From contig JAFSOW010000199.1 of NCBI GenBank assembly GCA_017443165.1, positions 1 to 15,037 of the forward strand: a stretch of DNA of 15,037 bases, read 5' to 3'. The translations under genes and the position numbers were made by a program. Below, one piece after another: positions 1 through 15,037 of this stretch. Each line of letters starts with the position of its first letter. Position 1 is the stretch's first letter. Below the pieces are notes generated by a model. The model was not told the origin of the DNA and searched no databases. It saw only the letters and a program-made list of their open reading frames with translations. The DNA is from Acidaminococcaceae bacterium. GTDB taxonomy: Bacteria; Bacillota; Negativicutes; Acidaminococcales; Acidaminococcaceae.

Positions 1-87
1 CGCGCTTCCATTTACAACGCCATGCCTCTGGAAGGTTGTGAAGCACTGGCGCAGTTCATGGAAGACTTTTATCAGAAAAACAAATAA
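1..87 (+). CDS. serC: Phosphoserine aminotransferase, C-terminal end (partial)
   Basis: Frame 1 is open from the first base to a TAA at 85-87 and encodes 28 residues. They contain RASIYNAMPLEG and end in FMEDFYQKNK. The R-A-S-I-Y-N-A-M-P-L-E-G block is the hallmark C-terminal segment of SerC, the PLP-dependent aminotransferase that makes 3-phosphoserine from 3-phosphohydroxypyruvate in cytoplasmic serine biosynthesis. The rest of the gene lies outside the window. A terminator follows at 120-155, so this looks like the end of a transcription unit. The call rests on one short but very characteristic motif. Confidence 0.8.
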   Translation, partial: RASIYNAMPLEGCEALAQFMEDFYQKNK

Positions 88-119
88 CGAACTGTTTGAA
101 TACCTGGGTTTGTGAACCG

Positions 120-155
120 GGGCTTTGGTTTTATGCCGAAGCCCTGTATTTTTTT
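120..155 (+). terminator. Intrinsic terminator after serC
   Basis: GGGCTT (120-125) pairs with AAGCCC (139-144). The stem continues inward through a T-G wobble and GG/CC (127-128 with 136-137), giving nine pairs with a 7-nt loop. A run of seven T follows at 149-155. It lies 32 nt after the serC stop codon and separates serC from the next operon. Confidence 0.7.
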
Positions 156-182
156 GCGAATTTTTAGATGAAATGGTAAAAT
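154..182 (+). promoter_or_regulatory. Sigma-70-type promoter for the sialidase-like/TTT operon
   Basis: TTGCGA (154-159) and TAAAAT (177-182) are separated by exactly 17 nt. A TG at 174-175, one base before the -10 box, adds an extended -10. Transcription would start near 189, giving a leader of about 30 nt that consists almost entirely of the hairpin at 203-217. It lies directly after the serC terminator, as expected for a new unit. Confidence 0.5.
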
Positions 183-202
183 AAGAATAACAAAAAACAA
201 AG

Positions 203-220
203 AAAGGTGTGACCTTTTTT
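203..220 (+). promoter_or_regulatory. Terminator-like hairpin at the translation start
   Basis: AAAGGT (203-208) pairs with ACCTTT (212-217) around a GTG loop, and six T occupy 215-220. The likely ribosome binding site of the downstream gene (AAAGG) is in the left arm and the TTG start codon overlaps the end of the T run. The hairpin could terminate or attenuate transcription, or mask the ribosome site. Its function is inference. Confidence 0.4.
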
Positions 221-1361: not shown

Positions 1362-1440
1362 TGCGTTTTTATATAGCAGGAAGCCGCAGAATATGATAAA
1401 ATAAATTGCGTTGAAATTAATCAAAAGGGGAGGAGAATCA

Positions 1441-2403
1441 ATGAAAAAGCTATTAACTTTATTGATGCTGACAGCGATGCTTTTAGGTGTGGTCGGCTGT
1501 GGCGGCAGTGCGGAAAAGAAAGCGGCGTATCCGGCAGACGGTGACATAACCGTTATCATTCCGAAAGCACCGGGCGGTGGTACGGATACCAGTGCCCGTG
1601 GGCTGATTTCGTTCCTGCAAAAGGAATTACAGGGAAGCAAGTTTGTTCCCGTAAATAAACCGGATGGTGGCGGTATTACCGGTATGGTGGAACTGTCCAA
1701 GGCGAAACCGGACGGACATACCTTAGGTATGGTAACGGTAGAGTTGGCTATGTTTCCCCATCAGGGCAAAGCAACCGTGACCAACAAGGATTATGTCTCC
1801 GTGTGTGCCCCTATTGCGGCTCCCGCAGCTCTGATCGTTACGAAGGAAGCACCGTACAATAACCTGGATGAGTTTGTAAAATATGCAAAAGACAATACCG
1901 GCAAGGTTTCCATGGGGAACTCCGGTACCGGCGCCATCTGGCATATTGCTGCGCTGAATTTTGAAAAGGAGTTTGGGGTAAAGTTTAAACATGTTCCCTA
2001 TCCGAAGGGAAGCGCCGACATTGCGGCTGCCCTGGCAGGCAAACACATTGAAGCGACCCTGGCGGATCCCAGTGTGTTCAAGAGCCAGATTGATGCAGGC
2101 GCGCTGAAAATTCTGGCCGTGATGGCGGATACCCGTAGTGAATTCTATCCCAACGTTCCGACCTTTAAGGAACTGGGCCATCCTATGGCGATCCGTGCCT
2201 GGGCGGCTCTGGTAGCTCCGAAGGGTACGCCGAAAGAGAAAATGGATGTGTTGCGCAAGGCTGCCGAAAAGGTGTGCAACAGCAAAGAATTTAAGGATTA
2301 TTTCAAGAAACAGGGTATTGATCCCACGGCGATCATCGGTGATGCCTGCGATAAGATGATGGCGGACGACGACGCCATGTACGCAAAATTCCTGAAAAAG
2401 TAA
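1441..2403 (+). CDS. tctC: Tripartite tricarboxylate transporter substrate-binding lipoprotein (TctC/Bug family)
   Basis: The 320-residue product is the extracytoplasmic receptor of a TTT transporter. Residues 1-20 form a lipoprotein signal peptide ending in VVGC, with Cys20 as the likely lipidated residue. PKAPGGGTDTSAR at 41-53 is the Bug-family ligand-loop motif (typically PfapGGgtDxxAR). The later block GNSGTGAIWHIAA and the PNVPTFKELG segment are also family features. The ATG at 1441 is chosen over an in-frame TTG at 1411 because AGGGGAGGAG lies just before it and the signal peptide begins there. A weak extra promoter may lie upstream (TTATAT 1369-1374, 17 nt, TATGAT 1392-1397). TTT ligands are typically di- and tricarboxylates; the ligand here cannot be read from sequence. 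Two stem-loops separate it from tctB. Confidence 0.92.
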   Translation: MKKLLTLLMLTAMLLGVVGCGGSAEKKAAYPADGDITVIIPKAPGGGTDTSARGLISFLQKELQGSKFVPVNKPDGGGITGMVELSKAKPDGHTLGMVTVELAMFPHQGKATVTNKDYVSVCAPIAAPAALIVTKEAPYNNLDEFVKYAKDNTGKVSMGNSGTGAIWHIAALNFEKEFGVKFKHVPYPKGSADIAAALAGKHIEATLADPSVFKSQIDAGALKILAVMADTRSEFYPNVPTFKELGHPMAIRAWAALVAPKGTPKEKMDVLRKAAEKVCNSKEFKDYFKKQGIDPTAIIGDACDKMMADDDAMYAKFLKK

Positions 2404-2411
2404 AACCGTTT

Positions 2412-2484
2412 AGGAAGTACGGCAGAACTGACCCGTACTTCCTTAATAAAAAGCCGCAGCGGTACATCGATATCGCTACGGCTT
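2412..2484 (+). promoter_or_regulatory. Two tandem stem-loops between tctC and tctB
   Basis: The first is an 11-bp perfect stem, AGGAAGTACGG (2412-2422) with CCGTACTTCCT (2433-2443), loop of 10 nt. The second starts AAGCCG (2451-2456) with CGGCTT (2479-2484), then, after one C-A mismatch, AGCGGTA (2458-2464) with TATCGCT (2471-2477), loop of 6 nt. Neither is followed by a real T run. In an operon this arrangement suits partial termination or protection of the upstream message from 3' exonucleases, so that the binding protein exceeds the membrane subunits. That role is inferred by analogy. Confidence 0.6.
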
Positions 2485-2506
2485 CTTCAAATCAGGGAGT
2501 TATAGT

Positions 2507-2977
2507 ATGGTTTCCATGAAATTTTGTAATTTTGTGGTGTTTGTGATGGGGATGATTATCGGCGGAGCGATTATGGGCGCGTCCGCCGGCTTTCCCATGG
2601 AGATTACGGAGCAGGGGCCGGGGCCCGGTTTCTGGCCGTTCCTGCTGGGGCTGGCGTTGGCCGTCGCGGCCCTGGTTTTAGCTGTTTTTACATTATGCCA
2701 CCGTCAGGAACTGACGGAGGAAAAAGTTTCGCTGGGCACCGCTGCCAACCGGCAGACTTATGTGGTGATGGTCCTGATAATATTATTTTGCGGTCTGATC
2801 CATCTGATTGGTTTTTATGCTGCGGCTGTGCTTTTGGTTCCCTGTATTATGCACCGGCTGGAGTGCCGGGATAAGAAGCTGATGATTTTTACAGCGGTAG
2901 GAGTAACGCTGTTTATTTACCTTGTGTTCGGGCAGCTTCTCCATACGTCGCTCCCGTCCTCTGTGTTTTTAGAGTAG
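2507..2977 (+). CDS. tctB: Tripartite tricarboxylate transporter small membrane subunit (TctB family)
   Basis: The 156-residue product is the small, poorly conserved membrane subunit of the TTT transporter. Hydrophobic segments lie at roughly 6-25, 42-63, 84-116 (one or two spans) and 125-145, matching the usual four-helix layout. The loop GPGPGFWPFLLG at 37-48 matches the G-P-x-x-F/W-P motif common in TctB. GGAG at 2496-2499 lies 7 nt before ATG 2507; a second ATG at 2516 is possible but more distant. The stop codon overlaps the tctA ribosome binding site, which suggests translational coupling. The family call is supported mainly by its position between tctC and tctA. Confidence 0.87.
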   Translation: MVSMKFCNFVVFVMGMIIGGAIMGASAGFPMEITEQGPGPGFWPFLLGLALAVAALVLAVFTLCHRQELTEEKVSLGTAANRQTYVVMVLIILFCGLIHLIGFYAAAVLLVPCIMHRLECRDKKLMIFTAVGVTLFIYLVFGQLLHTSLPSSVFLE

Positions 2978-2987
2978 GAGGGCGAAG

Positions 2988-4463
2988 ATGGCGGACATTA
3001 TTACAGCGTTGGGAATGATAGCAGATCCTTTTAATTTTGTGTGCCTGATTTTTGGCGTGGGCGTGGGAATTATGTTCGGCGCCATGCCGGGCCTTTCCGT
3101 GAACATGGGGCTGGCGCTGCTGCTGCCTCTGGCTTTTGCGTTTAAAGGTATGGCCGGTATACTGATGCTGCTGGGAATTTACTGCGGCGCAATTTACGGG
3201 GGAAGCATCAGCGCTATCCTGTTAAAGACTCCGGGCACTCCTGCCAGTGTGGCTACGACCCTGGACGGCTATCCCATGGCAGTTGAACAGCGGCAGCCGG
3301 GCCGGGCGTTGGGGCTTTCCACTACAGCCAGCGCTTTCGGGGGCATCTTCAGTACAGTTTGCCTGATTATCTGCGCGCCGCTTCTGGCCAGGATTTCGCT
3401 GCAGTTCTCCAAACCGGAATATTTTGCCCTGGCGGTATTCGGGTTATCCATAATTACCAGTGTTTCCAGCGGTAACGTGATCAAAGGGATCATGGGAGGC
3501 ATTATCGGTCTGTTTTTAGCCACGGTCGGTATTGATGCCATGAGCGGGGCCATCCGTTTTACACTGAACACGACATATCTGTTGGGCGGGGTTAGTTTCA
3601 TCCCCATCCTGATAGGTGTGTTTGCCCTCTCGCAGACGTTACAGAGTGTGGAGGACTGCTGGCAGAAAACACAGCTTCAGCAGCATGTTTCCATTGACAA
3701 TGTGCTTCCGTCACTGACAGATTTGAAACGATGTTTTGTGACTATGCTGCGCAGCAGCGCAATCGGAACATTTATTGGCTGTATCCCGGGAACGGGCGGG
3801 GATATTGCCAGTTTTGTGGCCTACGACCAGGCTAAACGGTGGAGCAATAACAGTGAAAATTTCGGGCATGGGGAGCCGGAAGGGGTGGCTGCGCCGGAAG
3901 CGGGTAATAATGCCGTCAGCGGCGGGGCGTTTATCCCGGTTCTGACGTTAGGTATTCCCGGGGACGGGGCTACCGCAATCATGATGGGCGCCCTGATGGT
4001 ACAGGGTCTGCAGCCGGGGCCCTTACTGTTCATTGACAAAGCTCCGGATGTATATGCAATTTTCATCGGTTTGCTAATGGCCAACATTATTATGGCCTGC
4101 ATGGGCTATTCCCTGATCCGGCTGTTTGTGAAACTGACCAATGTTCCGAATACGATTTTGCTCCCCATCATTATGCTGATGACATTTGTAGGTACTTACA
4201 GCTATGGAAATTCCATGACAGACGTGTACATCATGGTAGCCAGCGGTATCCTGGGCTATTTTCTGAATAAGCTGAAGTTTTCCATGAGCGCTGTCATCAT
4301 TGGCATCATCTTAGGCGGTATGGCGGAACAGAATTTTGTGGGGTCGCTGATCATGAGCGACGGCAATCCCGCAATCTTCTTTACAAGACCGATCTGCCTG
4401 TTTTTCCTGGCAGCTGCTGTGATATCCCTGGTTGCACCCTTTGTGATGAAAAAGAAAAGATAA
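2988..4463 (+). CDS. tctA: Tripartite tricarboxylate transporter large permease (TctA family)
   Basis: The 491-residue product is a very hydrophobic protein of the usual TctA length (about 500 residues) with around 12 membrane segments. It forms the ion-coupled translocation channel of the TTT transporter in the cytoplasmic membrane. Two family signatures are clear: TPGTPASVATTLDGYP beginning near residue 81, and GIPGDGATAIMMGAL near 322, which form the internally repeated, proline-rich loops of TctA. GAMPGLSVNMGLALLLPLAF near the N-terminus is another. The AGGAGG at 2976-2981 overlaps the tctB stop codon. It is the last gene of the operon and is followed by a large terminator. Confidence 0.95.
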   Translation: MADIITALGMIADPFNFVCLIFGVGVGIMFGAMPGLSVNMGLALLLPLAFAFKGMAGILMLLGIYCGAIYGGSISAILLKTPGTPASVATTLDGYPMAVEQRQPGRALGLSTTASAFGGIFSTVCLIICAPLLARISLQFSKPEYFALAVFGLSIITSVSSGNVIKGIMGGIIGLFLATVGIDAMSGAIRFTLNTTYLLGGVSFIPILIGVFALSQTLQSVEDCWQKTQLQQHVSIDNVLPSLTDLKRCFVTMLRSSAIGTFIGCIPGTGGDIASFVAYDQAKRWSNNSENFGHGEPEGVAAPEAGNNAVSGGAFIPVLTLGIPGDGATAIMMGALMVQGLQPGPLLFIDKAPDVYAIFIGLLMANIIMACMGYSLIRLFVKLTNVPNTILLPIIMLMTFVGTYSYGNSMTDVYIMVASGILGYFLNKLKFSMSAVIIGIILGGMAEQNFVGSLIMSDGNPAIFFTRPICLFFLAAAVISLVAPFVMKKKR

Positions 4464-4472
4464 ACAAATAAA

Positions 4473-4533
4473 CCGTAATGCCGGAGAGCATATTATGGAA
4501 AAATGCGTTCCGAAGCATTACGGCATTTTTGTC
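4473..4533. terminator. Large, probably bidirectional terminator after tctA
   Basis: CCGTAATGC (4473-4481) pairs with GCATTACGG (4515-4523). After an AA bulge the stem continues with CGGA (4482-4485) and TCCG (4509-4512), then GCAT (4488-4491) and ATGC (4503-4506). On the plus strand it is followed by CATTTTTGTCGTTT. Read from the other side it is followed by a U-rich stretch, so it may also stop the convergent ybaK transcript. From 4534 to 4622 nothing else is evident. Confidence 0.8.
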
Positions 4534-4622
4534 GTTTAAAAACAACGCTGAAATAGTACACAGATTCAATTGCTGACAGGCATGTAAACGAATTGATGAC
4601 AGATGCACCAATCAACTGTCTT

Positions 4623-5099
4623 TCAATTTTCCTGCCAGCCCTTGCAAAGATCCACCCAACCTTCGTTGACCGTGTATTTTTCCAGTTCTTCCGGCGTCAG
4701 TTCGATGGCGTTGTTCTCTTCTCCCGCAGCGGGGAACATGGTGGGGAAGCGTTTCATGGAAATATCCAGATACACTTTGACGCCGTCGTTAACACCAAAG
4801 GGGCAGACGCCGCCGGGAGCGTGGCCAATCTGTTCCTCTACTTCGGCAAAGGGAAGCATGTGGGCTTTTATACCGAAAAAGTGTTTAAACTTAGCGTTAT
4901 CGATTTTTGTATCCCCGGCAGTTACAATTAAAACAGGAAACTCTTTTCCTGCAAAAGAAAGCGTTTTGGCGATGCGGGCCGGTTCCGTTCCGGCGGCCTT
5001 GGCGGCCAGTTCTACCGTCGCGCTGGACTCCTTGAATGTTATAATCTTATCTTCCATACCAAACCGGGACAGAAACTTTCTGGCGCGTTCCACAGACAT
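4623..5099 (-). CDS. ybaK: YbaK/ProX-type aminoacyl-tRNA editing protein
   Basis: The 158-residue cytoplasmic protein belongs to the YbaK/prolyl-tRNA-synthetase editing-domain family, whose members hydrolyse mischarged tRNA, typically Cys-tRNA(Pro) or Ala-tRNA(Pro). The whole protein is the single domain, of usual length. Visible signatures are the IAKTLSF strand with Lys45, which matches the essential Lys of the family, the GDTKIDNAK segment (62-70), and GGVCPFG at 96-102 followed by VKVYLDISM. An AGGAG lies 9 nt before the ATG (revcomp of 5109-5113), and a strong promoter lies upstream. It is transcribed towards tctA. Which mischarged tRNA it edits cannot be told from sequence. Confidence 0.9.
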   Translation of the reverse strand: MSVERARKFLSRFGMEDKIITFKESSATVELAAKAAGTEPARIAKTLSFAGKEFPVLIVTAGDTKIDNAKFKHFFGIKAHMLPFAEVEEQIGHAPGGVCPFGVNDGVKVYLDISMKRFPTMFPAAGEENNAIELTPEELEKYTVNEGWVDLCKGWQEN

Positions 5100-5146
5100 G
5101 ATAGCGACTCCTTTACGTTTAGATTTTCTTATTCAATGTTGCTTCA

Positions 5147-5175
5147 AGTTTACGTTTTTCTGTATCACTTGTCAA
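5147..5175 (-). promoter_or_regulatory. Strong sigma-70-type promoter for ybaK
   Basis: On the minus strand TTGACA (5175-5170) and TAAACT (5152-5147) are separated by exactly 17 nt. The -35 box is perfect consensus. Transcription would start near 5140, about 40 nt before the ybaK start codon. Confidence 0.75.
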
Positions 5176-5273
5176 CTTTTGCTTAACCAATTACAATAAG
5201 AGTAGTAAACAAAAAAGTTTAGTCGGAAAAAGATTTGAGAAAAACATCGGGAACGATTTTGTAGTTTTATTGA

Positions 5274-5380
5274 GCGTTGACCGGGTAACCCGTGAGGGTC
5301 CCGGTCTGACGATACCGAGCAACGCGAACAGAGTGAGCATGCGCAGTGAGGAAGTGGGAGACGGGTTACCCGGTCAACGC
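5274..5380. repeat. 107-bp element with perfect 20-bp inverted arms
   Basis: The 20 bases at 5274-5293 (GCGTTGACCGGG...) are the exact reverse complement of 5361-5380 (...CCCGGTCAACGC). Each arm itself contains the near-palindrome CGGGTAACCCG. The 67-nt centre holds a small hairpin (CGGT 5302-5305 with ACCG 5314-5317) and a purine-rich stretch with two copies of AGTGAG around GCATGC. Weaker outer pairing is possible between GGAACGA near 5250 and TCGTTTCC near 5399. There is no long T run, no coding frame of note and no obvious target-site duplication. It could be an extragenic palindromic or MITE-like repeat, or a structured RNA in the 5' leader of the CoA-transferase gene. The remaining bases of the 346-nt gap hold only the ybaK promoter on the left and the RBS on the right; no convincing plus-strand promoter was found. 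Confidence 0.8.
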
Positions 5381-5445
5381 GGCTCCGGTTTCGTGAAGTC
5401 GTTTCCTGACAGTAGTAGTTATGTATATCTATAAGGAGTGAAACC

Positions 5446-6576
5446 ATGGGACCCTTACAGGACATCAGAGTACTTGACCTGTCACGTCTTTTGCCCGGAC
5501 CCTTCTGTACCCGCCTGTTCGCGGATATGGGGGCGGATGTCATTAAAATTGAAGAACCGGTGAAAGGCGACTATTCCCGGGACTTCGTGCCCCGGCGGGG
5601 TGATTTTGCCTGTTGGTTTATGGAAGTGAACCGTAATAAGAAGAGCATGGCGCTGGATCTGAAGCAGGAAGAAGACAGGAAAATCTTCCTGGAGCTTGCC
5701 AAAACCGCCCATGTGGTAGTGGAAAGTTACCGCCCCGGTGTTATGGAAAAGCTGGGGGTCGACTTTGCTACGGTAAAAAAGGTAAATCCGAAAATCGTCT
5801 ACTGTTCTATTACCGGTTATGGCAAACAGGGGCCCCTGGTGAAGCAGGCGGATCACGATATCGGCTACCAGAGTCTGGCGGGCCTGATTTCCCTTAGTGG
5901 GGAAAAGGACGGAAAACCGTCTATACCCGGCGTACTGGCGGCGGACATGCAGGCATCCGCCCTGGCCGGCATGTCGATTCTGGCTGCGCTGCGGCACGCG
6001 GAGCGGACAGGGGAAGGACAGGAGATCAGCATTTCCCTGTTTGATATTTGTCTGGCGCTGGTGCCCGGTGTCAGCGCTACCTATTTCGGCAATGGGTTCG
6101 TGAACGTGCGGGGCAACAACTGGCTCAGCGGCGCCAACCCCAATTACAACGTGTACCGGACAAAGGACGGCAGGTACATGAGTGTGGGCTGTCTCGAAGA
6201 AAAATTCTGGGCAAAGCTGTGCAAGGTATTGGAGCGACCGGATCTGATTACGGCGATCCGCGATGAGAAGAACTATCCCATGCTGAAAGAAGAACTGGCC
6301 TCCATCATCGCCGGGAAGACCATGGCTGAGTGGGCGGAACTGGCCAAAGGATCCGACGCCTGCTTTGAACCGGTGCTGAATTATGACGAGGCTGTAGCAA
6401 CAGAACAGGTGAAAGCGGATGAAATGGTACTGGAAATAGAGGATCCGGAACTGGGCAATTACAGGACCATGGGCTTCGTCCCCAAGTTTTCCAAAACGCC
6501 TTGTGCCTTTTACCGGAGAGCTCCCCGACTGGGAGAAGATACAGAAGATTTGTTGAAAGAAATAGCGAAAAAATGA
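5446..6576 (+). CDS. Class III CoA-transferase / alpha-methylacyl-CoA racemase-like (CaiB/BaiF family)
   Basis: The 376-residue protein is a cytoplasmic CaiB/BaiF-family enzyme. The N-terminus (LQDIRVLDLSRLLPGPFCTRLFADMGADVIKIE) is the standard CoA-binding start. VVESYRPGVMEKLG and PKIVYCSITGYGKQGP follow in family order. Asp167 in LAADMQAS occupies the place of the catalytic Asp, which forms an acyl anhydride in formyl-CoA transferase. ADHDIGYQSLAG at 135-146 places His137-Asp138 as in the GHDINY motif of alpha-methylacyl-CoA racemase, and the length also fits racemases better than the longer (about 425-residue) formyl-CoA transferases. So transferase or racemase are both open. AAGGAG lies 7 nt before ATG 5446. 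It is a single gene between the inverted-arm element and a terminator. Confidence 0.9.
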   Translation: MGPLQDIRVLDLSRLLPGPFCTRLFADMGADVIKIEEPVKGDYSRDFVPRRGDFACWFMEVNRNKKSMALDLKQEEDRKIFLELAKTAHVVVESYRPGVMEKLGVDFATVKKVNPKIVYCSITGYGKQGPLVKQADHDIGYQSLAGLISLSGEKDGKPSIPGVLAADMQASALAGMSILAALRHAERTGEGQEISISLFDICLALVPGVSATYFGNGFVNVRGNNWLSGANPNYNVYRTKDGRYMSVGCLEEKFWAKLCKVLERPDLITAIRDEKNYPMLKEELASIIAGKTMAEWAELAKGSDACFEPVLNYDEAVATEQVKADEMVLEIEDPELGNYRTMGFVPKFSKTPCAFYRRAPRLGEDTEDLLKEIAKK

Positions 6577-6579
6577 GAT

Positions 6580-6627
6580 AAAAAACAGCAGGCCACATAG
6601 AAATCTTGTAACCTGCTGTTTTTTTAT
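6580..6627. terminator. Shared bidirectional terminator
   Basis: AAAAAACAGCAGG (6580-6592) pairs with CCTGCTGTTTTTT (6612-6624), loop 19 nt. The A-rich left arm and T-rich right arm give a U run in both directions. It ends both the CoA-transferase transcript and the convergent HD-GYP transcript; the right arm overlaps the TAA stop of the latter (6624-6626). Confidence 0.85.
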
Positions 6628-7346
6628 TCATAATCTTTTATTTCGCTTGTTTCAGCTACTTTTGTTGCGACGGAAGACAATGCCGCGGCAGCCGTTTTGG
6701 TCTTTTCCCTGGGGCCCATCTTATTTAAAACCGGAATCGGTTTGATAGTATTTCCGGGAACAATGGCTTCAATAAAGGCTTTTACGATTTCCGGATCGAA
6801 AGCGGTCCCCATGGCGCTTAACAGTTCCTGCAACGCTTCCTGATGGCTTTTCTGCCACTGGGTAGCGCATGGATTGATTACACTGTCGTAATAATCCGCT
6901 ACGGCAATGATCCGTGCGCCAAGAGGAATGTTCACGCCTTTCAGACGCTTAGGATATCCGGTACCGTCCCATTTTTCGTGATGGCTGCGGATCAGGTCGA
7001 TGATACCGGAGAACTCTTCCATGTTTTCCAACATGCTGCAACCTGCGATACAGTGCCGTTTGTACTGGGCCAATTCACGGGTGCTCAGATACGGGAATTT
7101 ATTCAGGATGCTGTTGGGTACGCTTAAAAGGCCAATGTCGTGCATCAGAGCCGCGGTCCGGATAATACCGATTTCTTTTCTGGAAAGTCCCAGCTTGGCG
7201 GCCACGCTGGCCGAATAATTAGCTACCTGTTGCGAATGCAGATACAACACTTCGTTCTTACGCTGTAAAAGTTCAAGAAAAAAGCTGCAGATCTCTTTCG
7301 TCTTCCCTGTATAGGCAAAATCAAGATACTGAGGAATAGAAAGCAT
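6624..7346 (-). CDS. HD-GYP-like metal-dependent phosphohydrolase
   Basis: The protein is an HD-domain phosphohydrolase of the HD-GYP type, the family that degrades cyclic di-GMP in the cytoplasm. From the start used here (240 residues) the order is LHSQQVANYS with His37, the metal motif ALMHDIG with His69-Asp70, RHCIAG with His98, HHEKWDGTGYP (122-132) with the GYP triplet, and ARIIAVADYYD with Asp151. The Lys that normally follows HDIG in canonical HD-GYP proteins is a Leu, and the usual R-P-Y after AVADxxD is absent, so activity on cyclic di-GMP is uncertain. There is no fused receiver or sensor domain. The start is uncertain: no good RBS is visible, and an in-frame ATG at 7430 would add 28 residues. 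ATG 7346 was chosen because the intervening stretch contains a CCGGT/ACCGG hairpin and looks like leader. Confidence 0.8.
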   Translation of the reverse strand: MLSIPQYLDFAYTGKTKEICSFFLELLQRKNEVLYLHSQQVANYSASVAAKLGLSRKEIGIIRTAALMHDIGLLSVPNSILNKFPYLSTRELAQYKRHCIAGCSMLENMEEFSGIIDLIRSHHEKWDGTGYPKRLKGVNIPLGARIIAVADYYDSVINPCATQWQKSHQEALQELLSAMGTAFDPEIVKAFIEAIVPGNTIKPIPVLNKMGPREKTKTAAAALSSVATKVAETSEIKDYE

Positions 7347-7459
7347 AATATCACGTCCGTACTTAATTGTATTGCATGGATTTGCCGGCTTTTTCCGGTC
7401 CGCGCAAATGCGTTGAACCGGCATATCCATAAGTTTTCTGTTGTTTGTCAGATAAATAA

Positions 7460-7478
7460 AACCGGAACGGATCCGGTT
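7460..7478 (-). terminator. Terminator-like hairpin in the HD-GYP leader
   Basis: Read on the minus strand, AACCGGA pairs with TCCGGTT around a TCCGT loop and is followed by TTATTTAT. It lies about 20-40 nt after the predicted transcription start and upstream of either start codon. It could act as an attenuator. The stem is only 7 bp and the U run is interrupted. Confidence 0.35.
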
Positions 7479-7505
7479 ATGATTTCGGTTTTTTCAGGTA
7501 AGTAT

Positions 7506-7534
7506 AGTATAGTGGCTTTGGAAGATTCCGTCAA
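7506..7534 (-). promoter_or_regulatory. Sigma-70-type promoter for the HD-GYP gene
   Basis: On the minus strand TTGACG (7534-7529) and TATACT (7511-7506) are separated by 17 nt. A second overlapping TATACT lies at 7506-7501. The predicted start of transcription is near 7499, giving a leader of 70 nt (ATG 7430) or about 150 nt (ATG 7346). Confidence 0.75.
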
Positions 7535-7634
7535 GACAAACTGTAATTCGCCAAAAGCAGGTTCGTCATATTATGTTCAAAATGTTAATTATTAAACACA
7601 TAATGGCAAAGCTGTAAACAACGTTATGAAATGC

Positions 7635-7663
7635 TTGAATTATTCGGTTTTGTGTGCTATATT
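7635..7663 (+). promoter_or_regulatory. Sigma-70-type promoter for the amino acid uptake locus
   Basis: TTGAAT (7635-7640) and TATATT (7658-7663) are 17 nt apart. The start would be near 7670, leaving a leader of about 325 nt before the first binding-protein gene. Just upstream, CATAATG (7599-7605) and CGTTATG (7622-7628) form a near-inverted pair and ATTATG (7570-7575) is a further half-site. These could be operator sites but are AT-rich and may be chance. Confidence 0.65.
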
Positions 7664-7680
7664 TAGTGAATAAAAACAAT

Positions 7681-7875
7681 CCGGGTCTGTGGTTGAAAGT
7701 CGATGCCAGTTGCAGGCAAAACGATCCACGTAAGCAGTAAAAATTACTGTGAGCACGGTGCAGCTTAGAAGTAAGTCCTGCCGTTAATAACGAGAGGAGC
7801 AGTAGTGGGGAGCAGTTGCTTAGGAGCGAACCTTCCAGCAGGCGGGTGTGGGGGCGAAAACCAGGTCAGCCGGGG
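7681..7875 (+). ncRNA. Structured 5' leader RNA, family not recognised
   Basis: Four local helices can be drawn in order. H1: GTGG (7689-7692) with CCAC (7726-7729), then TCG with CGA (7700-7702, 7722-7724), then GCC with GGC (7705-7707, 7715-7717). H2: CAGTAA (7735-7740) with TTACTG (7744-7749). H3: ACGG (7755-7758) with CCGT (7781-7784), CAG with CTG, and CTTA with TAAG (7764-7767, 7772-7775) around GAAG. H4: GGGAG (7808-7812) with CTTCC (7832-7836), then GTT and GCT with AAC and AGC around TAGG. CCTGC (7777-7781), used in H3, could instead pair with GCAGG (7838-7842), which offers a switch. No known riboswitch consensus was recognised. It contains no convincing coding frame. Confidence 0.5.
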
Positions 7876-7887
7876 CGTTTTTATTCT

Positions 7888-7955
7888 GGCAGGTACGTGA
7901 CCGTTTTTCCGGTATCATGCGTCAGGCAAAGCCTGGTCTTATAACAGTATCTGCC
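7888..7955 (+). promoter_or_regulatory. Three-way-junction structure just before the first binding-protein gene
   Basis: A closing stem of nine pairs joins GGCAGGTAC (7888-7896) to GTATCTGCC (7947-7955) with one G-T wobble. It encloses TGACCG (7898-7903) with CGG and TCA (7910-7912, 7915-7917), and CAGGC (7923-7927) with GCCTG (7931-7935) around AAA. It ends 28 nt before the GGAGGGG ribosome binding site at 7984-7990. No T run follows, so it is not a simple terminator. It is probably part of the same leader RNA as 7681-7875. Confidence 0.5.
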
Positions 7956-7996
7956 CAAAGTATCGTTGTTGAATAACAGGTTTGGAGGGGAAGTAA

Positions 7997-8812
7997 ATGA
8001 AAAAAATTACTGTATTGTTAAGCGTTTTGGTCTTGGCGCTGGGCGTTTTGGCTGCCGGCTGCGGCGGCGGTGACAAGAAGGATGAAAAGAAGCAGGCGGC
8101 TGCACCGGCTCCGGCAGCCAAAGAAGAGCTGCTCGTAGGTACGGAACCATCCTTTGCGCCGTTTGAATTCCCGGAGAAAGATTCCAAGGAATTTACCGGC
8201 TTTGATATGGACCTGATCCGCGCTATCGCCAAGGAGATGGGTTATAAGAAATGCACCATCAAAAACATGGGCTTTGATGCCCTGATTCCTGCAATCAACG
8301 CAGGTAATATTGATGTTTCAATTGCAGGCTTCAGCATTACGGAAGAACGGAAGAAACAGGTTATTTTCTCCCAGCCTTACTACAAATCCGGCCTGGCTTT
8401 TGTAGTGCGCAAGGATGTAAACGACGTCAAGAAATTTGAAGATCTGAAAGGCAAGACGATTGCGGTACAGCTGGGTACGACCGGCGCCCTGTACGGGGAA
8501 AAACTGAAAGATAAAGGCTCCGTTGTGAAGACCTTCAATACCAGCGATCTGGCCTGCATGGAACTGAAGAACAAGGGCGCGGACGCAGTTATCAGTGATT
8601 TGCCTGTATTACAGTATTTCCTGAAGAACGGTGGCAGTGAATACGCGAAGCTGGCCGGCGAGCCTCTGACAGCGGAAGATTACGGTATCGTAATTTCCAA
8701 GAAGAAACCGGAACTTGCCAAAGAAATTGACAAGGCTCTGGACACCCTGAAGAAGAACGGCACCTATGACAAGCTGTATGAAAAATGGTTTGGCAGCAAA
8801 CCTGCAAAATAA
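7997..8812 (+). CDS. Polar amino acid ABC transporter substrate-binding lipoprotein (first paralogue)
   Basis: The 271-residue product is a periplasmic-binding-protein family 3 receptor (GlnH/HisJ type), anchored by a lipoprotein signal peptide ending in LAAGC with Cys22 as the likely lipid site. The mature part begins with a K/A/P-rich linker, then LLVGTEPSFAPFEF, GFDMDLIRAIAKEMG and MGFDALIPAINAGNID. The SITEER segment carries the Arg that binds the amino acid carboxylate in this family, and ISDLPV carries the Asp expected to contact the amino group. GGAGGGG lies 6 nt before the ATG. It is the first gene after a long structured leader and is followed by a near-identical paralogue, then the permease and ATPase. 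Glutamine, glutamate, arginine, histidine or a related amino acid are all possible ligands. Confidence 0.93.
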   Translation: MKKITVLLSVLVLALGVLAAGCGGGDKKDEKKQAAAPAPAAKEELLVGTEPSFAPFEFPEKDSKEFTGFDMDLIRAIAKEMGYKKCTIKNMGFDALIPAINAGNIDVSIAGFSITEERKKQVIFSQPYYKSGLAFVVRKDVNDVKKFEDLKGKTIAVQLGTTGALYGEKLKDKGSVVKTFNTSDLACMELKNKGADAVISDLPVLQYFLKNGGSEYAKLAGEPLTAEDYGIVISKKKPELAKEIDKALDTLKKNGTYDKLYEKWFGSKPAK

Positions 8813-8867
8813 GATACAGCATTTATAGTTTCTGTTAAGCAACAGGGATTCACACTGCATGTTTAGC

Positions 8868-8893
8868 AACGGAGGAATCCGTTTGATTTTATT
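8868..8893 (+). terminator. Small terminator-like hairpin between the two binding-protein genes
   Basis: AACGGA (8868-8873) pairs with TCCGTT (8878-8883) around GGAA, followed by TGATTTTATTT. A second small hairpin, CTGTT (8832-8836) with AACAG (8841-8845), precedes it. The stem is only 6 bp, so termination is probably partial and the second gene may be reached by read-through. No convincing promoter was found between 8813 and 8946. Confidence 0.4.
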
Positions 8894-8946
8894 TAAACTG
8901 GAATTTTGCTGGACAATTAATTAAAGCGAGGAGGCAGAACAAAAAA

Positions 8947-9726
8947 ATGAAAAAAGCATTAGTGCTTATGATGACTTTGTTGATGGCTGTTATGATGGTA
9001 GCAGGCTGCGGCGGCGGAGATAAGAAGGCCCCGGCCGTTCAGGCTCCCAAAGTTTTAAAGGTTGGAACGGAACCCACCTTTGCTCCCTTTGAGTTCCAGA
9101 AAGAAGGCAGCAAGGAATTTGACGGCTTCGACATGGATCTGATCCGCGCTATCGGCAAACAGATGAACATGAAAGTGGAAATCCTGAACATGGGCTTTGA
9201 TGCCCTGATTCCCGCCATTAATGCCGGGAATATCGATCTGGCCATTGCCGGCATGAGCATTACACCGGACCGTCAGAAAGCCGTGGACATGAGCGATCCT
9301 TACTACGTATCCGGCCTTGTTGTTGTAGTGGGTAAAGATAACGCTGCGGTAAAGAGCGTAAATGACCTGAACAACAAAGGCATCGCAGTACAGATCGGCA
9401 CCACCGGCGCGGAACGGGCGGCCAAGGTCCCCGGCGCCAAGGTTAAAAACTTCAATACCAATGCTGAAGTTTTCCTGGAATTGAAGAATAAAGGCGTTGA
9501 AGCGGTCATCATTGACAAGCCCGTTGCAGAATACTTCCTGGCCACCGGGGGCGGCAAAGATTACGCCAAAATCGTGGGCGACACTATGGAAGCGGAATCC
9601 TACGGCATCTCCCTGAAGAAAAACAGCCCGCTGACCAAAGAAATCAACAAAGCCCTGCTGGATCTGAAGAAAAACGGCGAATATGACAAGCTTTACACGA
9701 AATGGTTCGGCGCTGTGAAGAAATAA
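8947..9726 (+). CDS. Polar amino acid ABC transporter substrate-binding lipoprotein (second paralogue)
   Basis: The 259-residue product is a second family 3 binding lipoprotein, clearly a duplicate of the preceding one. The signal peptide ends in MVAGC with Cys21. It shares exact blocks with its neighbour, such as MGFDALIPAINAGNID, and the order VGTEP, GFDMDLIRAI, SITPDR and IIDKPV. The Arg of SITPDR and the Asp of IIDKPV are the ligand-contact positions of the family. The proteins differ most in the linker after the lipid Cys and in the hinge region (VSGLVVVVGKDNAAVKSV), which allows different ligand preference. AGGAGG at 8929-8934 is unusually far (12 nt) from the ATG, the gap being A-rich. 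A strong terminator follows. Confidence 0.93.
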   Translation: MKKALVLMMTLLMAVMMVAGCGGGDKKAPAVQAPKVLKVGTEPTFAPFEFQKEGSKEFDGFDMDLIRAIGKQMNMKVEILNMGFDALIPAINAGNIDLAIAGMSITPDRQKAVDMSDPYYVSGLVVVVGKDNAAVKSVNDLNNKGIAVQIGTTGAERAAKVPGAKVKNFNTNAEVFLELKNKGVEAVIIDKPVAEYFLATGGGKDYAKIVGDTMEAESYGISLKKNSPLTKEINKALLDLKKNGEYDKLYTKWFGAVKK

Positions 9727-9774
9727 ATTGTTAAGATTTGACATTAATTCTGTGCTTTGCTATTCGTAATAATG

Positions 9775-9813
9775 CAAAAGGGAATTTTGCATAAATTCCC
9801 TTTTGTATTTTTT
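9775..9813 (+). terminator. Strong intrinsic terminator after the second binding-protein gene
   Basis: CAAAAGGGAATTT (9775-9787) pairs perfectly with AAATTCCCTTTTG (9793-9805), 13 bp, loop TGCAT, followed by TATTTTTT. It separates the two binding-protein genes from the permease and ATPase genes. Confidence 0.9.
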
Positions 9814-9829
9814 ATTTATGTAGTATAAT
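9801..9829 (+). promoter_or_regulatory. Promoter for the permease-ATPase pair
   Basis: A perfect TATAAT lies at 9824-9829. The -35 region (TTTTGT, 9801-9806, 17-nt spacer) is poor and overlaps the T-rich arm of the preceding terminator. A start near 9836 would give a leader of about 105 nt. Confidence 0.5.
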
Positions 9830-9844
9830 ATTTGCAAAGATTTT

Positions 9845-9875
9845 CTGCCGTGCCTTTTCAGGTGCATTGCGGCAG
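9845..9875 (+). promoter_or_regulatory. Leader hairpin before the permease gene
   Basis: CTGCCG (9845-9850) pairs with CGGCAG (9870-9875), with TGC and GCA continuing inside. No T run follows, so it is not a terminator. It may stabilise the transcript 5' end; the function is unknown. Confidence 0.35.
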
Positions 9876-9940
9876 AGAGTCTGTGCATTTGCGATGGATT
9901 GCAAAATGTAAAAAAATACAAAAACAAGAAGGTTTGCCTT

Positions 9941-10597
9941 ATGGACGTTAATTTTGATTTGATGAAAAACGCGTTTCCGCTGTTGGTTGCGGGCGCCGGC
10001 ATTACGATTGAGATCACGGCTCTCAGCGTCTTCTTCGGTATGCTGATCGGCATCATCGTGGCTCTGGTTCGTATGTCTGATTTTAAAATTCTGCGCTGGC
10101 TGGGCAATGTATATGTGGATTTTATCCGGGGGACACCGCTTCTGATCCAGATTTTCCTGGTTTATTTTGCGCTGCCCAGTATTATCGGGCACCGGGTAGA
10201 CGCGTTCTTCGCAGCGATTTCCGCCTGCTCCATCAACAGCGGCGCCTATGTGGCGGAAGTGTTCCGGGGCGGCATTCAGTCCATTGACGTGGGTCAGATG
10301 GAAGCCGGACGCAGTCTGGGCATGACCTGGTGGCAGACTATGCGCTACATCATTTTACCTCAGGCCTTCAAGCGCATCATCCCTCCGCTGGGCAACGAAT
10401 TCATTGCCATGCTGAAGGATTCCTCCCTGGTTTCCGTAATCGGGTTTGAGGAACTGACCCGCCGGGGCCAGCTGATCATTGCCCGTACTTATGCGTCCTT
10501 TGAGATCTGGATGGCGGTAGCGATTATCTACCTGATCCTGACATTTACGGTAGCCCGGCTTACCGGCCTCCTGGAAAGGAAGTTTGATACAAAATGA
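9941..10597 (+). CDS. Polar amino acid ABC transporter permease (HisMQ/GlnP type)
   Basis: The 218-residue integral membrane protein is a permease of the polar amino acid family (His/Glu/Gln/Arg/opine type). The N-terminal [29 protein letters not shown] and [22 protein letters not shown] segments are characteristic. The EAA loop that docks onto the ATPase is [22 protein letters not shown] at 121-142, followed by [22 protein letters not shown]. About five membrane spans are expected. ATG 9941 is preferred to an in-frame TTG at 9899 because AGAAGG lies 8 nt before it and [18 protein letters not shown] matches the family start. It overlaps the ATPase gene by 4 nt (ATGA), so the two are translationally coupled. 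Only one permease is present, so it probably acts as a homodimer. Confidence 0.93.
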
Positions 10598-11331
10598 CAG
10601 AACGACAGGATATTATTAAAATTACGGGCCTGAAAAAGAGTTTCGGCGACCTGCATGTATTGAAGGGCATTGACCTGTATATCAAAGAAAAAGAAGTGGT
10701 GGTCATCATCGGACCCTCCGGCAGCGGCAAGTCCACCCTGCTTCGCTGCATCAATTACCTGGAAGAGCCTTCGGGCGGGGAAATCGTGTTCGACAACATC
10801 CCTCTGAACGGGGAAGCAAACATCAATGAGGTCCGCAAGGAAGTGGGCATGGTGTTCCAGCGTTTCAACCTGTTCCCCCATATGACGGTGATGGAAAACC
10901 TGGTGCTGGCTCCCATGAAGGTGAGAAAGACGAGCCGGAAGGAAGCGGAAGAGCTGGCCATGACCTACCTGAAAAAAGTCGGGCTGGCGGAAAAAGCGAA
11001 TAATTATCCGGACCAGCTTTCCGGCGGGCAGCAGCAGCGTGTGGCTATTGCCCGGGCCCTTTGTATGAAACCCAAAGCCATGCTGTTTGACGAGCCGACT
11101 TCGGCGCTGGATCCGGAAATGATCAACGAAGTGCTGGAAGTTATGAAGCAGCTGGCCAAAGAGGGCATGACCATGGTTGTGGTTACACACGAAATGGGTT
11201 TTGCCAAAGAAGTGGGCGACCGGGTGCTGTTTGTGGACGGCGGGTATATTGTGGAAGAAGGAACGCCGGAGCAGGTATTCGACCATCCGCAGAACCCTAG
11301 GACCCAGAGTTTCCTGTCCAAGATTCTGTAA
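10594..11331 (+). CDS. glnQ: Polar amino acid ABC transporter ATP-binding protein (GlnQ/HisP type)
   Basis: The 245-residue cytoplasmic ATPase powers uptake. All nucleotide-binding motifs are intact: Walker [10 protein letters not shown] at 40-48, Q-loop in [19 protein letters not shown], signature [15 protein letters not shown] beginning near 142, Walker [14 protein letters not shown] with Asp166-Glu167, and the switch His in [15 protein letters not shown]. The length and the [26 protein letters not shown] tail are typical of GlnQ-type subunits. It overlaps the permease gene by 4 nt. The symbol reflects family resemblance; the transported amino acid is not known. Confidence 0.95.
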
Positions 11332-11411
11332 TACAGGGGGCGTTTGCGAAAACGCTGCAGTGGAAAGATTGAAAATGTGTTTGCGTTACGCTCTACAGGA
11401 GGATAAATACC

Positions 11412-12230
11412 ATGTTGAAAAAGACGGCAATGTTGTTTCTGGCGTTGGTCCTCATAATCAGCGCATCTGCAGGTTTTGCTGCAGAAAGCGCGAAGGGCAA
11501 AACCGGGAAGGCTGTGAAGACAGAACAAAGTAAGTATCCGGCTGCTTATGAAAAGGCAATCCTTGCTGCGAAAGCGGAAGTTCCGGTTGCAGCAGTTTTT
11601 CAAGGATTGTTAAATGAACAGGAAACTGATACGACTGTTGCTTTTTTGTTTTTTGATAATAATACACTCCGTGCCTATGAGGTTACTGTAATTAAAGAAA
11701 TCAATAAAGTGAAAACCGTTAAAATCGGGGGCAGCAATATTCCCGGCAGCACAACCGTTAATAAAACAGTGGAAGACATTGAAGAAATAGTAAGGCTGGA
11801 GTATCCGGACGGGAAGATAACCTCAATTGAACAGAAATACGAAGGGAACCTCAGCTATTATGAGGCGCAAGTGGAAACACAGCGGTTTACGGCAGATATT
11901 AAGATCAATCCAGTGACCGGGGCGGTTGGCAGCCGGGTACTGGAATATAAAGTGGAAATGACCAAGACGGAGGTCGGGGAGCAACCGTCAAAAGAAGAAC
12001 CGGCTAAGCCGGAAAAGCAGAATCCGGTTCCTCCTGTTCCCAGCGAATGGATGTGCGGTAACTGCGGAACCCTGAACCATGAAGGACAGTTCTGCATCAA
12101 CTGCGGTATCCGGAGACCTGCGGATATGAACGCGCCTGTTGTTAAATGCAACAAATGTGGATGGGCTTCTGCAGATCCCAATAACCTGCCCAATTTTTGC
12201 CCGGAATGCGGCAGTCCATTTCAACATTAA
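11412..12230 (+). CDS. Exported PepSY-like protein with two C-terminal zinc ribbons
   Basis: The 272-residue protein begins with a signal peptide (residues 1 to about 23, ending SAGFA-A). A stretch at about 42-105 and a clearer one at 119-178 resemble PepSY-like domains: the second has the pattern VEDIEEIVRLEYPDGKITS, then YYEAQVE, then IKINPVTGAV. A Pro/Glu/Lys-rich linker (about 186-212) leads to two zinc ribbons: Cys215, Cys218, Cys228, Cys231, and Cys246, Cys249, Cys263, Cys266, each of the CxxC...CxxCG type. Zinc ribbons are more usual in cytoplasmic proteins, so this combination with an export signal is odd; the hydrophobic N-terminus could instead be a membrane anchor with the rest outside. 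An AGGAGG lies before ATG 11412. It lies 80 nt after the ATPase gene with no clear terminator between. No function is known. Confidence 0.75.
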   Translation: MLKKTAMLFLALVLIISASAGFAAESAKGKTGKAVKTEQSKYPAAYEKAILAAKAEVPVAAVFQGLLNEQETDTTVAFLFFDNNTLRAYEVTVIKEINKVKTVKIGGSNIPGSTTVNKTVEDIEEIVRLEYPDGKITSIEQKYEGNLSYYEAQVETQRFTADIKINPVTGAVGSRVLEYKVEMTKTEVGEQPSKEEPAKPEKQNPVPPVPSEWMCGNCGTLNHEGQFCINCGIRRPADMNAPVVKCNKCGWASADPNNLPNFCPECGSPFQH

Positions 12231-12356
12231 GGATTAAGGAAGCAACGAGTTGTAACGAATTGTGCAGTTTTTAGTAAAAAAGTGACAAAAGTTAGAAATC
12301 TGTATTTACAAACAGGAATAATATGTAATACGTCGAATGAATAGATAGCAGACAAA

Positions 12357-12476
12357 GGGGAGGAGCCCTGCGGACAGGATTTACAAAGAGGAGGCATTAC
12401 AGATCAGTTAGAGAACGGGCCGCAGCTTCCTGATCCGGAGCCTGTAATAACCAAGTAACCTTGGAAGTTCAAGGAG
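12357..12476 (+). ncRNA. Structured hpf leader, candidate raiA-motif-type RNA
   Basis: Pairings drawn by eye: CCTG (12367-12370) with CAGG (12375-12378) around CGGA; ATTACAG (12396-12402) with CTGTAAT (12442-12448); ATCAG (12403-12407) with CTGAT (12430-12434); CCAAG (12451-12455) with CTTGG (12460-12464). A long-range pairing CTGCGG (12368-12373) with CCGCAG (12420-12425) is also perfect and would form a pseudoknot or an alternative fold. CCTTG (12459-12463) can pair with CAAGG (12470-12474), which covers part of the hpf ribosome binding site. The position directly before hpf (raiA) fits the raiA motif, a known RNA of Firmicutes and Actinobacteria, but the consensus could not be checked. From 12231 to 12356 there is AT-rich sequence with an imperfect tandem 10-mer near 12246 and no convincing promoter. 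Confidence 0.5.
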
Positions 12477-12484
12477 GACTCAGT

Positions 12485-13036
12485 ATGGCAATTATCGTAA
12501 AAGGCAGAAACGCAGTTGTATCACCGGCGGTCAAAGCGTACCTGGAGAAAAAGATCGATAAAGTTACCAGGCAGTTTAAAGCGGTGGGAGATATTACTGC
12601 AGTACTTAAGGTAGAAAACGGAAACCATATCGCTGAAATCACCGTTCCGGCTAAGGGTATCCTGCTGCGGGCCCAGGAATCTACAAAAGACATGTATTCC
12701 TCCATCGATCTGGTGGTGGAAAAGATTGAGCGGCAGGTACACAAATATAAGACCAAATTAATGAAACGGAAATACAGCAACTTCCGGGAAGTTCCTGTAG
12801 AAACCCCGCCTGTAGCGGAAGCGGTTCCGGTTCAGGCGGAAGCGGAAGAAGATTTTAAGATTATCCGTAGCAAGAGTTTTACCATGAATCCCATGACACC
12901 GGAAGAAGCAATTTTGCAGATGAATCTGCTGAATCATGATTTCTTTGTATTCTATGATCCGGATTTTGGAGGAGTAAGCGTAGTGTACCGGCGTAAAGAC
13001 GGCAATTACGGGCTGCTGGAGCCCAAGCTGGAGTAA
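12485..13036 (+). CDS. hpf: Ribosome hibernation promoting factor, long form
   Basis: The 183-residue cytoplasmic protein inactivates ribosomes in slow growth by binding in the small subunit and joining two 70S particles into 100S dimers. The N-terminal S30AE domain covers about 2-98 (AIIVKGRNAVVSPAVKAYLEKKIDKVTR, then the basic KYKTKLMKRKYS tract that meets 16S rRNA). A Pro/Val/Glu-rich linker (about 103-122) leads to the C-terminal dimerisation domain (124-183: DFKIIRSKSFTMNPMTPEEAILQMNLLNHDFFVF...). This two-domain length is the long form of Firmicutes. ATG 12485 is used, 7 nt after AAGGAGG (12471-12477), rather than an in-frame TTG at 12461. It sits next to secA, a common neighbour in this phylum. 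Confidence 0.94.
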   Translation: MAIIVKGRNAVVSPAVKAYLEKKIDKVTRQFKAVGDITAVLKVENGNHIAEITVPAKGILLRAQESTKDMYSSIDLVVEKIERQVHKYKTKLMKRKYSNFREVPVETPPVAEAVPVQAEAEEDFKIIRSKSFTMNPMTPEEAILQMNLLNHDFFVFYDPDFGGVSVVYRRKDGNYGLLEPKLE

Positions 13037-13054
13037 AACATCTGTTGCATATTC

Positions 13055-13088
13055 AACGCAGGACGAAAGTCCTGCGTTTTTTGTTTTT
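13055..13088 (+). terminator. Strong intrinsic terminator after hpf
   Basis: AACGCAGGAC (13055-13064) pairs perfectly with GTCCTGCGTT (13069-13078) around a GAAA tetraloop, followed by TTTTTGTTTTT. This is a textbook terminator and isolates hpf from secA. Confidence 0.92.
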
Positions 13089-13138
13089 ATTCTTCACGTA
13101 AACTTCACAAACTTTAACACAGAAATGGCGGCGTTTTT

Positions 13139-13167
13139 TTGACTTTTGCGGCTCTTTCTGTTAAAAT
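13139..13167 (+). promoter_or_regulatory. Sigma-70-type promoter for secA
   Basis: TTGACT (13139-13144) and TAAAAT (13162-13167) are separated by 17 nt. Transcription would start near 13174, about 86 nt before the secA start codon. Confidence 0.7.
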
Positions 13168-13259
13168 TTTATGATAGACAATAATGGATATTTGTTTGCT
13201 AAAAACATGAAGAAAAATAAAACCATTAATGAAAATTCCCAAGTTAAGGAGTGATTAGT

Positions 13260-14297
13260 TTGCTGGAATCTTTAATAAAGAAGATTTTCGGAGATCCCAA
13301 TGAAAAAGAATTAAAAAACATCCAGCCGATTGTAGACAAAATCAACGCGCTGGAACCTGAGATGGAACGGATGAGCTCCGCCAACCTGCAGGCAAAGACG
13401 GCTGAATTTAAACTGCGCCTGAAAAAAGGCGAGACGCTGGATGATATTTTGCCGGAAGCTTTTGCGGTGGTAAGGGAAGCGTCCAAGCGCGCCACCGGTC
13501 TGCGCCATTTTGATGTGCAGCTGATTGGCGGCGTAGTGCTGCACCGTGGCAAGATTTCCGAGATGCGTACCGGCGAAGGCAAGACTCTGGTGGCAACTCT
13601 GCCGGTGTATCTGAACGCGCTGACCGGTCACGGCGTTCATGTAGTTACTGTCAACGATTATCTGGCTCGCCGTGACAGTGTGGATATGGGCCGTATTTAT
13701 AATTTTCTGGGTCTGACAGTGGGTCTGATTGTCCATGATCTTGATTTCGCGGAACGGAAGGCTGCGTACCAGGCGGATATCACGTACGGAACCAACAATG
13801 AATTCGGCTTTGATTATCTCCGCGACAACATGGTGGTTGATAAGGATCAGATGGTGCAGCGGGAACTAAATTACTGCATTGTGGACGAAGTGGACTCGAT
13901 TCTGATCGACGAGGCCCGTACTCCGCTGATTATTTCCGGCCCCGGTGAAAAGTCTGCCGATCTGTACAAAGTCATCGCCCGTATCGTCGCCAACATGAAA
14001 CCGGGCGAAGATTACACTGTCGATGAAAAGCAGAAGCAGGTAGCACCTACGGAAGTGGGTATTGCCAAAGCGGAAAAGGCGCTGGGCGTGACAAACCTGT
14101 ATGATACTGAACACGGCGTGGATTTCTCCCACCATATCATGTGCGCGATCAAAGCCAAGGAGTTGATGATTCGTGACCGGGATTATGTGGTGAAAGACGG
14201 AGAGGTCATCATCGTCGACGAATTTACCGGACGTCTGATGTACGGGCGCCGTTATTCCGAGGGCCTGCACCAGGCCATCGAGGCCAAGGAAGGCGTA
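13260..14297 (+). CDS. secA: Preprotein translocase ATPase SecA, N-terminal part, truncated at a joint
   Basis: Residues 1-346 are a normal SecA N-terminus, the motor that drives preproteins through SecYEG. It starts at TTG 13260 ([20 protein letters not shown]), 8 nt after AAGGAG. Walker A is MRTGEGKT with Lys108 and Walker [15 protein letters not shown] has Asp209-Glu210, at the same numbers as in E. coli SecA. The preprotein cross-linking region and the return to the motor core ([28 protein letters not shown]) are present. SecA should then continue with a stretch like KVQxESQTLATITFQNYFRxYxKLAGMTGTA and run to over 800 residues. Instead the homology stops at EGV346 and the frame runs on, without a stop, into an unrelated lipoprotein-like sequence. 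An intact secA is essential, so this is unlikely to be the true chromosomal state. Confidence 0.88.
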
Positions 14298-14309
14298 GTT
14301 ACTAGTCGA
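14295..14309. other. Abrupt joint between secA and unrelated sequence
   Basis: SecA homology ends at the codon 14295-14297. The next gene-like start is ATG 14310. The few bases between (GTTACTAGTCGA) belong to neither in any recognisable way. No inverted repeats, target duplication, transposase or integrase accompany the change, but composition and codon use shift at once to AT-rich. A chimeric contig is more likely than an insertion. Confidence 0.75.
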
Positions 14310-15037
14310 ATGTTAAATCGTGTCCTTTGTTGTATTGTATTGGCTGTTTGCTGTGCGTTTTGCGGCGTTGTAAATTGTACGGATAATTCAAACAGTTCTC
14401 AGAACCTTAAATCTTCTTTAATTCCATATTTAATTTCAGAACAAAAATCTCAACTGATCCCAAGAGAGATTTTGTTTGCAAAACCCGACCGATTTTGCGT
14501 GCGTCTCAGTCCTAACGGCAGGTATATTTCATATTTTTCTCGTTCAGGAAGTGAAGTCGAACTTCATATCGATACTGTAGATGGGAAGCGGCAACAAATT
14601 TTTAAAGTAAAAGAAGCCAGAAATATGTATGGATACAGGTGGTGTTATACAAACAATCACATTTTGCTTCCTGAAGATAATCAAGGTGATGAAAACGACC
14701 ATATTTTGTGTCTCAACATAAAAACGGGCGAGAAAAAAAATCTTACACCGTTTGAAACATTTGGAAAATCAAAATCATATGTAGAAGAGCTATCAAAGGA
14801 TTTCCCCAATGAAGCGATTATCAGCAATAATAAACGCAATGCCCAGCGTTTTGATGCTTACCGCGTGAATATTGAGACAGGAGAATGTGATCGAGTATTC
14901 GAAAACAACGCCTATATTAGTATGATATTTGACGAGAAACTGCAGTTGAAAGCACTCTCGAGAATATTATCAAATGGAGATGTGGAATTATTGACCGCAC
15001 GCGGAGATGTCGTATTAAAAATTCCGTGCGAAGAAGC
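14310..15037 (+). CDS. N-terminal part of a lipoprotein resembling S9-family (prolyl oligopeptidase-like) peptidase (partial)
   Basis: The frame is open from ATG 14310 to the end of the window (242 residues) and continues beyond it. It begins with a Cys-rich lipoprotein-like signal peptide ([23 protein letters not shown]) with possible lipid sites in AFC or VVNC. A segment [28 protein letters not shown] follows, which matches the start of the beta-propeller of S9 peptidases of proteobacterial type (typically IPREVLFGNPxRxxxxLSPDGxxIAY). Repeats such as DGKRQQIF and [11 protein letters not shown] fit propeller blades. The catalytic alpha/beta-hydrolase domain would lie outside the window, so peptidase activity cannot be shown. 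It is in frame with secA upstream. AAGGAAGG at 14286-14293 belongs to secA and is too far (16 nt) to be a convincing RBS. AT-richness (only 16 G/C in 14401-14460 by hand count) contrasts with the rest of the window. Confidence 0.6.

Follow-up and report, generated by a model that had tools for sequence, protein, structure and literature searches.

A secA–peptidase reading frame in an Acidaminococcaceae draft genome, most probably an artefact of a cross-phylum chimeric metagenome contig

According to the metaMIC study (PMC9661791), inter-genome joins occur more often than other errors in the CAMI simulated sets, and chimeric assemblies contaminate MAGs. Here, we analyzed a stretch of 15,037 nucleotides, hereafter the window, which makes up contig C166 in its entirety; the contig belongs to a fragmented draft genome of 1,494,729 bases and 255 contigs (73% complete, 3.2% contaminated). 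An open reading frame containing a TTG at position 13260 begins as secA and runs, with no stop up to the window end, into a sequence related to S9-family peptidases, for a total of 592 whole codons counted arithmetically from 13260. The first-pass annotation, which had described the uninterrupted frame and its 592 codons accurately, favored a chimeric join of two organisms. Our comparisons lead to the same reading: secA continues on another contig and in the relatives, the tail comes from a different phylum, and the contig is almost certainly a cross-phylum metagenome chimera, an artefact rather than a novel fusion protein. Bases 1-14299 would belong to the draft genome's own Acidaminococcaceae-like organism, and bases 14300-15037 to a different one.

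The secA gene and its continuation on a second contig

The 5' part of secA (13260-14299, plus strand; 346 codons and 2 bases) is ordinary and genuine to the draft genome. Residues 1-346 matched SecA models, including NF009538 (1.3e-169, model positions 1-338 of 814), and Pfam recognized both the SecA DEAD domain (PF07517, 6.5e-113) and the preprotein cross-linking domain (PF01043, 2.1e-41), in keeping with the earlier statement that the protein is normal to residue 346. The stretch is also collinear with, and 99.5% identical over 1039 bases to, that of the congeneric genome G010.

Only one other place in the draft genome matched the window DNA, namely positions 11999-12094 on the minus strand of contig C119, with 100% identity to the 96 bases at 14204-14299 (plus strand). 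C119 is 12,094 bases long, so that the match occupies the very end of that contig; read on the reverse strand, C119 opens with the exact copy of the 96 bases, followed by the portion of secA that the window lacks. The sole other SecA_DEAD match in the draft genome fell at the same end of C119 and corresponds to the last part of the domain. Full-length secA is found on no single contig of the genome but is split between C166 and C119, and, judging from these sequences, the true path of secA is from window base 14299 into C119. The first-pass annotation had proposed searching the genome for the missing secA C-terminus and for a full-length secA. No second, intact copy was found elsewhere in the 73% complete genome; nor is one required, because the missing part of the same gene sits on C119. 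Near position 11501 of C119 (locus L005), the secA part shows a one-base deletion relative to G010, which shifts the frame; the joined reading of C166 and C119 stops after 547 codons. The deletion is probably a sequence or assembly error of the draft.

The arrangement in related genomes was examined by searching window positions 13800-15037 as DNA in 41 genomes, including the window's own. Of the 40 others, 37 matched, and all 37 matches ended at 14299 or at most 8 bases before it. In all 29 relatives' loci that were compared, the window secA part and the C119 part both matched and adjoined each other, and in none of these 29 secA loci was the tail matched at E <= 1e-3. G010 is collinear with window positions 1-14299 at 95-96% identity, rising to 99.5% near secA, with 218 bases (5216-5433) unaligned, and with C119 at 94-96%, with 30 internal bases and the last base unaligned. 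The two contigs meet in G010 at the joint, forming a collinear span of about 26 kb save for the short unaligned stretches.

The end of the C119 overlap, the ends of the relatives' DNA matches and the end of G010 collinearity from the window side, at 14299, place the putative false joint of two organisms between bases 14299 and 14300, with 14299 being the last base common to the window and the true secA continuation. The first-pass annotation had correctly recognized a switch inside secA, although its position for the switch, 14297, was two bases too early. The joint is exact, base to base, without N or gap, and residue 347 is Val on both branches, that is, in the C119 continuation and in the tail. 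G+C content drops from 51.5% in the secA part to 37% in the tail, confirming the compositional change reported previously.

The host side looks like Acidaminococcaceae, a lineage of Negativicutes within Bacillota. A protein search with the CoA transferase encoded in the window returned 445 matches above the cut-off, and among the best 120 of these, which were inspected, the 10 organism-named rows comprised 9 from Acidaminococcaceae and 1 from Succiniclasticum. A BNR-repeat (sialidase-like) protein (219-1361; PF13088, 3e-57) is encoded where the G+C content of the window is highest; it is genuine to the lineage, because it is collinear with G010. Three genes at 1411-4463, of which the first and third had no NCBIfam match, resemble by eye what we take to be a tripartite tricarboxylate transporter in the order TctC, TctB, TctA. 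Further downstream, two adjacent genes for similar amino-acid ABC substrate-binding proteins (7997-9726), both with GlnH as the best model, below the curated cut-off, point to an apparent tandem duplication of the binding protein; permease and ATPase genes come next (9899-11331).

Identity and origin of the terminal 738 bases

The tail comprises the last 738 bases of the window (14300-15037). Its first ten bases (14300-14309, plus strand), considered foreign from the sequence and from the relatives' upstream stretches, separate the joint from an ATG at 14310 and include no Shine-Dalgarno-like GGAG. A SpeI-like site, ACTAGT, was spotted by eye at 14301-14306; a palindromic 6-mer close to a joint is not rare. 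From the ATG, the tail encodes 242 codons (14310-15035, plus strand), which, given the protein matches, the alphaproteobacterial relatives and the composition, appear to be the opening part of a foreign gene for an S9-family peptidase, truncated where the contig ends. The 675-residue protein P0023, apparently a complete copy of the tail protein, is 98.3% identical to the tail across all 242 residues, with the same Met start. This protein, which cannot be read from C166 because the contig ends after 242 codons, came up among the best 120 of 2,898 matches when a full-length relative served as the protein query; its cluster represents 10 sequences from 2 contigs, of which the longest has 8,987 bases. 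Nowhere in the draft genome was the remainder of P0023 found.

A direct protein search with the 242-residue fragment recovered 4 proteins with 49-67% identity. The fragment had no Pfam match and no PDB match, and a weak match to a TolB propeller remained below the cut-off. In all three full-length relatives scanned, Peptidase_S9 (PF00326) was located by Pfam within residues 419-637; this catalytic domain is absent from the fragment, which ends before that region. The earlier label 'S9-peptidase-like' is justified through the full-length relatives with PF00326; the fragment by itself would not support it. The earlier term 'lipoprotein' is putative, the tail protein showing a hydrophobic, Cys-rich leader.

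To identify relatives of the tail, we performed a pattern search of a genome collection covering 84,980 species, in which 46 stretches matched and 9 loci were confirmed as tail relatives, at 50-68% identity. All nine come from MAGs, with titles naming Alphaproteobacteria (5), uncultured proteobacterium (3) and Holosporaceae (1); three of the titles refer to roe deer rumen, yak omasum and water buffalo rumen. The Met of the window lies at most 2 residues from the relatives' start in 8 of the 9 aligned loci, a later Met having been taken by the script in the ninth (L019), and the frames measure 657-680 residues in 8 of the 9, L018 being shorter (503). A search of 100 genomes found the tail protein in none of the 13 other members of the genus, none of the 45 members of the family (0/58 together) and none of the 4 members of the order; of 37 genomes from elsewhere in the class, 3 (G093, G083 and G063; loci L026, L027 and L028) carry an S9 protein 31-34% identical to the tail. 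The best tail match among 40 genomes of the family of G100 reached 70%, and none was recorded at E <= 1e-60, a strict cut-off applied without a positive control, in 49 genomes of the order of G100. Plasmid and phage collections contained nothing that matched the tail, and neither a 30-base pattern spanning the joint nor a 36-base one from within the tail had an exact counterpart in viral contigs.

Oligonucleotide composition was assessed with a third-order Markov score in 738-base chunks, contrasting 7 of the 9 alphaproteobacterial loci with C119 and G010. The tail scored +0.050 per base, compared to a mean of 0.058 and a minimum of 0.013 for 91 chunks of the 7 alphaproteobacterial loci, each scored with its own locus left out, and to a maximum of -0.007 for 58 chunks of C119 and G010; the comparison is weakened in that the two G010 stretches overlap and the alphaproteobacterial loci include the tail homologues. 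Outside the tail, the 37 window chunks were without exception negative, the sign flipping at the joint. On the strength of these sequence comparisons, the tail is considered to be from another organism, of a different phylum than the host and related to Alphaproteobacteria known from rumen MAGs, which presumably shared a sample with the host.

Possible origins of the joint

The two sequences that follow the same 96 bases could have arisen from an error at a fork of the assembly graph, at which a chimeric read or a local-extension step might have joined the wrong branch, leaving the true secA continuation as the separate contig C119. The 96-base shared end resembles a k-mer overlap. Among 20 sampled contig starts of the 255, no start-to-start overlap was present, so that a standard k-mer overlap is unconfirmed for this assembly, and the other ends of C166 (left) and C119 overlap with no other contig. 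We do not claim that the joint formed through a secA block common to both organisms: the tail is not secA, and the overlap is not especially conserved (83%, compared to 75-88% in nearby stretches, in 29 relatives). Across 11 alphaproteobacterial secA loci, 72-78 of the 97 bases at window positions 14203-14299 are matched. The in-frame joint only 10 bases 5' of a start codon looks contrived; the chance of an in-frame joint alone is 1 in 3, and, on the chimeric-contig account, both the frame and the nearby start codon are due to chance.

Within the same account, the chimera might have preceded assembly, as a chimeric DNA molecule formed during library preparation or amplification and faithfully kept by the assembler. 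We regard this variant as possible but doubtful: an exact joint that has neither N nor gap is as compatible with a chimeric molecule as with a graph error, but a single molecule would rarely be expected to beat the true branch unless the depth was low.

A real and recent event in which some cells of the population acquired, within secA, foreign DNA carrying an alphaproteobacterial peptidase gene, both joints being natural and the intact path on C119 stemming from the other cells, appears highly improbable. A mixed population would likewise yield two sequences after the same 96 bases in one genome, and the reading frame is open across the joint. However, secA is an essential gene, and here it would have been cut without a second secA, the C119 half being the only other SecA_DEAD match in the 73% complete genome. 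Moreover, the draft genome lacks the remainder of the peptidase gene, the tail protein is missing from all 58 genus and family relatives, and no relative's DNA match crosses the joint. The tail likewise lacks plasmid or phage matches, and, with no viral-contig pattern match either, insertion by a mobile element is unsupported.

That the frame encodes a working translocase carrying a peptidase domain is the least credible reading, its probability being close to negligible: although the single frame stays open for 592 codons to the window end, SecA would be cut at residue 347, compared to the 787-814 positions of the best SecA family models, the appended part has its own start codon and hydrophobic leader and corresponds to the N-terminus of a stand-alone 675-residue protein, and no such fusion was found among the relatives covered by the tail protein search and the DNA search.

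The significance of a chimeric contig is one of quality control only. A gene caller would report a SecA-peptidase fusion at this locus. The 738-base tail would be contamination from another phylum, and the peptidase should not be counted as a gene transferred to the lineage; the advice of the first-pass annotation against assigning anything past the joint to this genome was sound. Neither should secA be called broken or lost in the lineage on present evidence.

Comparison with known systems

Compared with bacterial SecA (NF009538 / TIGR00963), window positions 13260-14299 correspond to the N-terminal part, including the preprotein cross-linking domain, with the continuation on C119; the difference is that the gene is cut here by the apparent false joint and that the C119 part contains one frameshift. 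The tail resembles the S9 (prolyl oligopeptidase) family peptidases that alphaproteobacterial MAGs from rumen and other sources encode. It corresponds to their N-terminal 242 residues and aligns in register with P0023 from Met 1; in contrast to those proteins, it does not reach the catalytic part, which PF00326 places within residues 419-637 of the three scanned relatives. As a whole, the contig conforms to the inter-genome translocation misassembly, as outlined in the metaMIC study (PMC9661791), in apparently uniting two genomes in one contig with an exact breakpoint, and differs in that it was detected through contig ends and relatives, not through reads.
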